From: Nitrospira sp.
GTDB lineage: Bacteria; Nitrospirota; Nitrospiria; Nitrospirales; Nitrospiraceae
NCBI GenBank assembly: GCA_005116945.1
Contig: SWDH01000029.1
Span: forward strand, 119,620 to 183,619
DNA length: 64,000 bases
Direction of reading: 5' to 3'
Part shown: one piece after another, positions 8,945 through 31,273 of the stretch
How the letters are laid out: every line of letters starts with the position of its first letter
Position numbering within the stretch: the stretch's first letter is position 1
Translations under genes and position numbers: made by a program
The notes under the pieces: generated by a model
What the model saw: only the letters and a program-made list of their open reading frames with translations
Told to the model about the DNA's origin: nothing
The model's database searches: none

Positions 8945-9260
8945 GGGAGCGGCCAGGGGCCCTTCTTGCTCGCAGAACGCGCACGATAAGAATGATGGGA
9001 AGGCACCCACATTGGTCCTGTGCTCCCGGAACGCGCGCCCTGAGAGGGGGGAGACGGGGCAGCCTGGCCGTCCTCCTGCTCGCGGAACGCGCACGCTCAG
9101 AAGGTGCTCGTTCGACGCGCGCAATCGAGGATCGACCAGGCGGCCCCTTGGAGGGAACAGGAAGCGAGTGTGGAGGGAGTATCTGTCGCCTCGTTCGACG
9201 GCCGCAGGGGGACCAACATGGGTACCCTTCCCAGAGAGGAAAGGCAAGCGAGCTTGGAAG
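8945..9260 (+). repeat. Repeat family B, copy 2 (left border of BrnTA)
   Basis: Fills most of the 403-bp gap 8933-9335. Three imperfect tandem units begin CTTCTTGCTCGCAGAACGCG (about 8962), CCTGTGCTCCCGGAACGCG (about 9017) and CTCCTGCTCGCGGAACGCG (about 9075). GTGCTCGTTCGACGCGCGCA then closes a hairpin-like pairing. A GGAGGGAGTATCTGTCG block near 9174 matches the family's right end. No convincing gene is present in it. Confidence 0.7.
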
Positions 9261-9927: not shown

Positions 9928-10180
9928 TTCTTGCTCGCAGAACAGAGGCGGGGGTGGAGCCTGATGATCTTCTGTGCTCGCGCAACGCGCGGTCGCGGAC
10001 TCCCCTCGTTGGACGCGCGCAGTGGAAGATCAATCAGCCCCCATCCCTGAAGAAAAAACGGGCGAGCTTGAAGGGAGTGTGAGAGGGTAGGCTAGATGGT
10101 CTCCTGTGCTCGTGCAACGCGCGGTCTAGGAAGACCCTCGTTGGACACGCGCAGTGGGAGCCCGATCTAGCCAGCCCTCA
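9928..10180 (+). repeat. Repeat family B, copy 3 (right border of BrnTA)
   Basis: Blocks in order: CTTCTTGCTCGCAGAAC, GGTGGAGCCTGATGATCTTC, GTGCTCGCGCAACGCGCGGT, CTCGTTGGACGCGCGCAGTG, GAAGATCAATCAGCCCCCAT, and a second GTGCTCGTGCAACGCGCGGT unit near 10108. The GGAGCCTGATGATCT...GCGCAACGCGCGGTCG part is nearly identical to copy 5 near 31.08 kb. Confidence 0.75.
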
Positions 10181-29467: not shown

Positions 29468-29700
29468 GGGAGTGGCCAGGTGCCCTTCTTGCTCGCAGAA
29501 CGCGCACGATAGGAATGTGCTCGTTCGATGCGCGCAGCAAAGGGCAGCCTCGACCACTCCCCTACAGAGAGGTGTAGGGGGATTAGAATGCCCTCGTTGG
29601 ATGCGCGCAGTGGAAGATCATTCAGCCCCCATCCCTGAAAAGAGAACGAGCAAGCTTGGAGGGAGCATGTATATCATTCGATGCGCGCAGTCGAAGGCAA
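29468..29700 (+). repeat. Repeat family B, copy 4 (left border of cassette remnant)
   Basis: In order: CTTCTTGCTCGCAGAACGCG, ATGTGCTCGTTCGATGCGCG, a short internal hairpin CCCCTACAGAGAGGTGTAGGG near 29562, CTCGTTGGATGCGCGCAGTG, GAAGATCATTCAGCCCCCAT, and CTTGGAGGGAGCATGTATAT. The last block is almost identical to copy 1. The rest of the gap to 29827 is the junction of the cassette region. Confidence 0.78.
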
Positions 29701-29758
29701 ACCACGTCCGCCCTGATGGAGGGGATGAGACGGTGTTGTGTGGATCCGCCTAATCATT

Positions 29759-30664
29759 GTTAGACCGACATCGAACATCGCGCTTGCGTGAGGGATGAGC
29801 ATCAAGCCCGAATGGTGAACGCCACCGATGACTTGGACAACTGAAAGCTCGCCATCGGAAGAAATCGCGCTCGATCGTGCTGCAGACGCGCTGAACCAGG
29901 CGCTAGACCGGCGCGTTCCCGTGTCAGCACAGATGCGCGTCACCGCGTGCGTCCGCGACGCACTCAGTTTCATGACGCTTCTTCGTCAACTTGAAGCCGA
30001 CGAGATTGGACGCTCGGAGAAGCGGGTCAATGGCATACCTCACTGGGATAGCCAAATGTCCTTTCAGTTCGCCGCCGGGATGAAGGCCATGTACTACTTC
30101 GTGCGCGCGCTCCAAGATGCGGTCTATGCCGCGTTACTAGAGGCGACTGGGCAGCGTGCGGGAGCGTATTCGTCGATGCAGGCCTGTGCCACAAAGGCAA
30201 GCAATCCCATTCGGCCGCTGATCGACCAGGCGTTACCGGACTACTTCGAGTGGTTTACCGACTTTCGTGACATCCGCAACGACATGAAACTCGGCGCCTC
30301 AACAGCATTTGAATTCCGCGGCGCTGTGGAAGCGAGGCAAGTTCGGGTCATTCTCCAGAACGTTGATGACGCCAAACGACACGTCTCAGGCGGGCGGGAA
30401 TTATCTCTTCTCGACATCGACCGCTGCCTGATGCATAGCGCCAGACTTTTGCAGTTTGCAGCGGATCACATTAGCCATGCTGCCCAAGCGTAACCACACA
30501 CGGTGTAAAAGCTAAATGGTGCCGATGCTTCGCGTCGACTCAACGGCTCCGCGGATGTCTCCGCTGGCTGGCCCGCGAAGCGGGGCCAACCAGCGGCTGC
30601 AGAGCGGGCAGCCGCTTTACAAACATCATGTGTTCCGCGGATGCCGTTGATCCGCGGAGCCGTT
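29759..30664 (+). mobile_element. Candidate integron gene cassette (no integrase present)
   Basis: Bounded on the left by GTTAGAC (29759-29765) and on the right by GTTAGGT (30662-30668), both fitting the integron core site GTTRRRY, where recombination cuts after the G. Inside is one ORF in the same orientation, followed by an attC-like structure. A second cassette-type ORF starts 12 bp after the right core site. The left core site has no visible attC before it because repeat B occupies that place. Confidence 0.55.
29828..30493 (+). CDS. Hypothetical protein of candidate cassette 1
   Basis: Not recognised. 221 aa, all-helical in appearance, with segments such as MRVTACVRDALSFMTLLRQL, FAAGMKAMYYFVRALQDAVY and FEWFTDFRDIRNDMKLG. 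The last is reminiscent of HEPN-type RNxxxx motifs but the histidine is missing, so no call is made. No signal peptide. It starts 63 bp after the GTTAGAC core site and ends 44 bp before the attC candidate, as expected for a cassette gene. The Shine-Dalgarno sequence is weak (GGTGA). Confidence 0.55.
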   Translation: MTWTTESSPSEEIALDRAADALNQALDRRVPVSAQMRVTACVRDALSFMTLLRQLEADEIGRSEKRVNGIPHWDSQMSFQFAAGMKAMYYFVRALQDAVYAALLEATGQRAGAYSSMQACATKASNPIRPLIDQALPDYFEWFTDFRDIRNDMKLGASTAFEFRGAVEARQVRVILQNVDDAKRHVSGGRELSLLDIDRCLMHSARLLQFAADHISHAAQA

Positions 30665-30668
30665 AGGT
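30538..30668 (+). repeat. attC-like recombination site
   Basis: 131 bp from ACTCAAC (fits RYYYAAC, 30538-30544) to GTTAGGT (fits GTTRRRY, 30662-30668). A perfect 14-bp outer stem pairs 30542-30555 (AACGGCTCCGCGGA) with 30651-30664. Two inner hairpins follow: GCTGG...CCAGC around 30563-30593 and AGCGGCTG...CAGCCGCT around 30592-30617. Length and architecture match long attC sites. A continuous outer stem without an extrahelical base is atypical and lowers confidence. Confidence 0.6.
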
Positions 30669-30679
30669 AATTACGCGTC

Positions 30680-31084
30680 ATGAAAACTCAAGTCGAGTTC
30701 CGGTCAATCAAGTTCCCGCCTTACGAAGGTGAGGAGGAGCAGATCAATCCGGGGTTATGGGGCAAGCGGCTTGCCGAGTATCTTGCCCAGAAGCTTGCCG
30801 AGAAGGGCATCGCGACAGAGGAGATGGTTGCCGAGGATTGGGGATGGTATGTCCTGGTGCGTAACGAGGGATTCCGGCTTGCCCTTTGTTGCGGACACCA
30901 GAACGGAGATGACGACGAGTTTGTATGCTTCACTGACCCGAGCACCCCAATCGTGAAGAAGTTCTTCAAGAAGATTGACGCGACGGCACAGCTCACCCGC
31001 CTCACCGAGGCACTCCAGCAGATTCTCGCTTCGGACCCAGAGATTCGAGATGTGGTATGGACAGAGTCGCGGGATGGAGCCTGA
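30680..31084 (+). CDS. Cassette-type hypothetical protein
   Basis: 134 aa, starting 12 bp after the GTTAGGT core site. Soluble and acidic: SIKFPPYEGEEEQINPGLWG, KRLAEYLAQKLAEKGI, AEDWGWYVLVRNEGF, CCGHQNGDDDEFVCF. From memory, proteins of this pattern recur as integron cassette products, function unknown; a database search would confirm. Its stop codon (TGA 31082-31084) lies in the first bases of repeat B copy 5, so its last few residues are repeat-encoded and its own attC has been lost. Confidence 0.65.
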   Translation: MKTQVEFRSIKFPPYEGEEEQINPGLWGKRLAEYLAQKLAEKGIATEEMVAEDWGWYVLVRNEGFRLALCCGHQNGDDDEFVCFTDPSTPIVKKFFKKIDATAQLTRLTEALQQILASDPEIRDVVWTESRDGA

Positions 31085-31235
31085 TGATCTCCTGTGCTCG
31101 CGCAACGCGCGGTCGTGGACTCACCTCGTTGGACGCGCGCAGTGGAAGATCATTCAGCCCCCATCCTTCAAGAAAGAATGAGCAAGCTTGGGGGATCATT
31201 TAAAAGGGTGCGGGCTATCGATGCGCGCAGTCGTC
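31071..31235 (+). repeat. Repeat family B, copy 5 (right border of cassette remnant)
   Basis: GGAGCCTGATGATCTCCTGT, GCTCGCGCAACGCGCGGTCG, CTCGTTGGACGCGCGCAGTG, GAAGATCATTCAGCCCCCAT and AGCAAGCTTGGGGGATCAT, closely matching copy 3 block by block. It abuts the cassette-type ORF and runs to the leader of the DUF3047 gene. Confidence 0.78.
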
Positions 31236-31273
31236 GTCGAACCACGCTTGTCCTCAAAGAGGGAAACAGTAAG

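Follow-up and report, generated by a model that had tools for sequence, protein, structure and literature searches.

The locus studied here lies at 29508–31263 of a 64,000-nucleotide stretch of Nitrospira sp. DNA (the window) and reads, from left to right, as an attI, a first ORF (ORF1), an ORF-less cassette with a 131-bp attC, and a second ORF (ORF2), with copies of a dispersed repeat (repeat B) on both sides:

29508..29723, plus strand: repeat-B units, left bracket (3 units)
29538..31217, no strand: segment missing from relatives (alignments with G008, G014 and G018 join at 29537/31218)
29742..29765, plus strand: attI-type site GGATCCGCCTAATCATTGTTAGAC, crossover core GTTAGAC at 29759
29828..30493, plus strand: ORF1, 221 aa, first cassette gene (homologue search negative)
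30520..30537, plus strand: eroded 5' end of the ORF-less cassette, TGCCGATGCTTCGCGTCG (compared with L017, L169, L170 and others)
30538..30668, plus strand: putative attC of the ORF-less cassette, with R'' ACTCAAC, a perfect 15-bp stem, two inner hairpins and R' GTTAGGT
30680..31084, plus strand: ORF2, 134 aa, second cassette gene, its ATG 11 bases past the attC core
31113..31263, plus strand: repeat-B units, right bracket (2 units)

The preliminary description, made from the sequence alone, had reported two core sites, two same-strand ORFs and a 131-bp site beginning with ACTCAAC and containing two inner hairpins. All were found again, with the cores at 29759–29765 and 30662–30668. The exact outer stem also exists, its length being 15 bp rather than the 14 bp first given, and ORF2 does follow directly behind a core site, its ATG being 11 bases away. 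No attC was present at the locus 3' of ORF2, and the attC of ORF1 was eroded or absent and could not be recognised. The docking site remains at the locus, as do two captured segments and a single recombination site, but the enzyme is gone; we consider the locus, with high confidence, to be an integrase-less integron remnant.

The preliminary description had proposed looking for intI elsewhere in the genome. A profile search detected no integron integrase over the curated TIGR02249 cut-off in this assembly, a draft that is 82% complete, such that an intI on a missing contig is possible. The best scores of the tyrosine recombinases of the genome were for XerC, XerD or general Xer families. This result, and the recurrence of the 131-bp site as an attC in relatives, support the integrase-less cassette cluster originally suggested. 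The locus resembles a CALIN in having cassettes and an attC without intI nearby, but differs from one in containing a single recognisable attC (the default threshold of IntegronFinder 2.0 is two) and in retaining an attI-type site. Of the components of a complete integron, intI was not found, and attI was recognised by its motif match.

The left core site had been taken for part of a missing attC. It belongs instead to a site overlooked in that description, 29742–29765, which on the basis of its sequence is an attI-type site and not a lost attC. This site agrees with the genus attI at 23 of 24 positions, and the ~15 bp 5' of 29742 resemble the intI–attI spacer of relatives. The motif GGATCCGCCTAAACATTGTTRRRY, searched for with up to three mismatches allowed, was present in 60 copies in 23 of the 32 genus genomes, versus none for the reversed-pattern control. 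In G014, it starts 163 bp past an intact integron integrase (TIGR02249, 463 bits) and in the same orientation; it also lies downstream of an intact intI, with agreement in orientation, in G008, G152 and G080. The order in G008 is intI, about four attC-bearing cassettes and then the attI copy. Most orphan attI copies have kept the upstream intI–attI region (40–330 bp), and 19–100 C-terminal intI codons were kept at 14 attI copies. The first forward ORF begins no more than 60 bp from the attI core in 55 of 62 copies, as against 7 in a reversed-upstream control, and clustering placed these 55 ORFs in 46 groups with no similarity detected between them.

Given that attI is located 3' of intI and oriented like it in the intact Nitrospira cases, these are “reverse” integrons. 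In reverse integrons, such as those of Treponema, the cassettes lie downstream of intI and run in its direction. The intact Nitrospira integrons share this arrangement, but the phylum and the attI sequence differ (the term “reverse integron” occurs in PMC7691350). The Nitrospira integrases of G014 (L056:2552-3775) and G008 (L055) are oriented like their cassettes, and their TIGR02249 domain is preceded by an N-terminal extension at least ~95 residues long. Two unrelated arrays (L018:2120-2180 and L055 at ~8060, minus strand) have a common end after a degenerate core (CGTTAATGCGRCAGGGCTGAGGA...GACCGCTTTATGGCGGTGCGA), and this may be a conserved 3' integron end. The genome carrying the window contains two more orphan attI-like sites, G000:C21:16895-16918 (L092) and G000:C22:573262-573285 (L093), each with a forward ORF within 25 bp (279 and 568 aa, respectively).

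The origins proposed for CALINs are intI loss, off-target insertion and rearrangement (PMC8618304). The second of these would make the locus a CALIN inserted at a secondary site by an integrase encoded elsewhere, with the attI resemblance being that of the secondary site, and the locus is indeed empty in relatives. We nevertheless regard this explanation as improbable, given the closeness of the 24-bp site to the genus attI, the short stretch of intI–attI spacer before it and the intI tails retained at other attI copies.

The 131-bp site is, as judged from sequence comparison, the attC of an ORF-less cassette of ~145 bp that recurs in three genera. In its outer stem, positions 30542–30556 pair with 30650–30664 (arms AACGGCTCCGCGGAT and ATCCGCGGAGCCGTT). 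Folded as single-stranded DNA, both strands were far more stable than shuffled sequences (z −6.6 to −6.7), with none of 200 shuffles as stable as the bottom strand (z −6.6). On a home-made attC score, based on RYYYAAC...GTTRRRY and the L-box, the site scored 15, with values of 15–19 for classical attCs; 206 kb of shuffled sequence yielded two matches with a score of at least 14. The site has the R'' and R' boxes RYYYAAC and GTTRRRY and complementary arms, and in relatives from three genera the cassette boundaries are exact at GTT in independent contexts. Extrahelical bases in the L box, which give an attC its bottom-strand polarity, are a typical feature, though not a universal one at the level of sequence. 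The outer 15-bp stem has no conserved bulge, and the L boxes of this unusual site cannot be assigned with certainty; extrahelical bases may lie further in. As the extrahelical bases of classical attCs are absent from this stem, the choice of strand cannot be read from it. An Rfam scan of the window gave no match, and no match to a sigma-70-type promoter was obtained in the window copy of the cassette.

This copy is the only full one in its own genome, and relatives of it were found in 18 of the 175 family genomes. The full copies form a cassette of ~143–146 bp without an ORF, GTT|(RRRY)CGACGCTTCGCGTC-RYYYAAC...GTT|RRRY. It is joined GTT|...|GTT directly to attI in five genomes (G017, G098, G124, G064 and G140) and to the R' box of a classical attC in three (G004, G064 and G138). 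The single attC candidate of the preliminary description is supported: the same site bounds cassettes exactly at GTT in relatives, and in two of them (G064 and G140) the cassette adjoins an intact intI. Eleven copies have a three-way junction in common, made up of the outer stem and two hairpins as its arms. Nine pairs had changed on both sides, the covariation score was higher than in any of 500 shuffles or any slid version, and the pairing likewise exceeded all shuffled and slid controls, although the structure was derived from the alignment on which it was tested, which favours the fold somewhat. In the window copy, the 5' junction is eroded (GTTGAGCCGACG to ATGGTGCCGATG), and with it the attC of ORF1; the intact counterpart of 30520–30537 in relatives is GTT|GAGCCGACGCTTCGCGTCG.

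The near-perfect stem without extrahelical bases, and the partial, scattered nature of some copies, would also be expected of a dispersed hairpin element (MITE- or REP-like) with RYYYAAC and GTTRRRY ends by chance. This possibility appears very remote: in three genera, copies abut attI or classical attCs exactly at GTT and have both ends at the cassette crossover, in two genomes next to an intact intI, and a transposon would not pick such points. We therefore retain the assignment of the site as an attC. ORF-less cassettes are already known (PMC6557892, PMC11014356); the Nitrospira cassette is similar in lacking an ORF, but differs in that nearly all of its ~145 bp is a three-way-junction attC.

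Neither ORF1 nor ORF2 had a match in Pfam, NCBIfam, PADLOC, PHROGs or PDB. ORF1 had no homologue on plasmids, in GTDB contigs (searched with peptide patterns) or in the 174 other family genomes. ORF2 has relatives with 25–35% identity on plasmids and with 32–35% identity (one partial, 46%) in 11 family genomes, including those of other genera. No attC-like sites were found near the relatives in family genomes, and ORF2 consequently provides no evidence for a cassette.

In G008, G014 and G018, the Pyr_redox and DUF3047 genes that flank the block lie next to each other, and the block is also missing from G012, G003, G002, G015, G010 and G021, giving an empty site in nine relatives in total; the insertion is therefore seen only in the genome carrying the window. 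In relatives, only repeat B lies between the two genes. In the window, it consists of a 30-mer present five times and two longer pairs, at 29508–29723 and 31113–31263. The preliminary description had placed lost attCs at these repeats; the copies are real, but they belong to a palindrome that is scattered through intergenic regions and has no relationship to attC. This palindrome (core GCTCG..GAACGCGCAC..GTGCTCGTTCGATGCGCGCAGT) is present in dozens of copies per genome in the genus, and in the window it also occurs at 10012. As repeat-B units bracket the block at a site that is empty in relatives, the block probably entered by recombination between repeat-B copies, which would be the simplest route. 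A weak association between attI copies and repeat B is hinted at by the 7 of 61 copies lying within 500 bp of it under a strict pattern, the background for this comparison coming from one window only. Overall, the initial reading of the locus is essentially right but incomplete, and is upgraded by the attI-type site and the ORF-less attC cassette.

Across the family, the attI motif was found in 95 of 175 genomes, with up to nine copies (control matches, 0), and an integrase over the cut-off in 18 of the 175 (2 of the 32 genus genomes). The flanking sequence identifies several attI sites as orthologous between species. At one of these (locus A), a single intI truncation leaving the last ~28 codons is common to G004, G008, G012 and G023 and, less clearly, to G025 and G026, indicating that intI was probably lost there before these species diverged. 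The first ORF after the attI core at locus A was unrelated in all 10 species examined, and the variable segments extend over ~0.7–2.9 kb before the common right flank, where this was reached. These observations suggest that cassette exchange went on after the local integrase had been lost. The exact GTT junctions, despite that loss, suggest an integrase acting in trans.

In G004, the first locus-A cassette protein (L017:8486-9169) looks by eye like a TIR-domain protein, possibly of a defence gene, and a classical attC follows its gene at 9180–9237. At locus A of the genome carrying the window (L190; G000:C14:6000-17500), attI is gone and a gene resembling, by eye, a beta-lactamase-family serine hydrolase is in its place; a remaining fragment matches the G004 HAD-hydrolase cassette at 97% identity. 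The attI of the window might derive from this locus.

The differences between cassettes at orphan attI sites could also have arisen without a trans-acting integrase, if one large ancestral array had been trimmed differently in each species or if alleles had been swapped by homologous recombination. Integrons do decay and integrases are rare in the family, and we see this as a genuine, if rather doubtful, possibility: the unrelated first ORFs lie right behind the attI core in 10 of 10 locus-A genomes, and at least four genomes have one and the same intI truncation point; random deletions would not rejoin exactly at GTT. We put forward tentatively, at close to even confidence, that the Nitrospira family has scattered, orthologous orphan attI platforms without an integrase of their own, which went on exchanging cassettes via an occasional trans-acting integrase, as a multi-site integron system with a shared integrase. 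The decayed chromosomal integrons of Xanthomonas, with a truncated or deleted intI, are similar in that intI is lost, cassettes remain and the positions of CALINs are conserved across species (PMC12444791). Arrays there are more stable once intI is inactivated, and mobilisation of CALINs in trans is possible (PMC12444791); in contrast to this stability, the orthologous orphan attI sites of Nitrospira hold different first cassettes.

The window block itself is a decayed integron. The exact junctions in relatives suggest that an integron integrase would have inserted its cassettes by recombining attI with attC, crossing over at the GTT cores. The local integrase gene, of which there is none in the assembly, would have been lost later, and the block would have moved into the dispersed palindromic repeat, probably by recombination between repeats. 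It would now be inert unless an outside integrase arrives and acts in trans.

Integrase-less cassette clusters in Nitrospira have already been reported, with two CALINs in Ca. Nitrospira inopinata identified by IntegronFinder 2.0, and attI has hardly been described outside class 1 (PMC9024848). What is new is the set of orphan attI platforms across the family; none of the papers in the collection searched dealt with orphan attI in Nitrospira. For tests of strand selection, the recurrent ORF-less cassette offers a natural attC of minimal size whose outer stem is, unusually, free of bulges. With an attI consensus recognisable for a whole bacterial family, integrase-less platforms exceed integrases several-fold, and their content differs from species to species. 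Integron surveys search for intI and attC. If these platforms are served in trans, counts of intI would greatly underestimate the fraction of genomes open to cassette capture.
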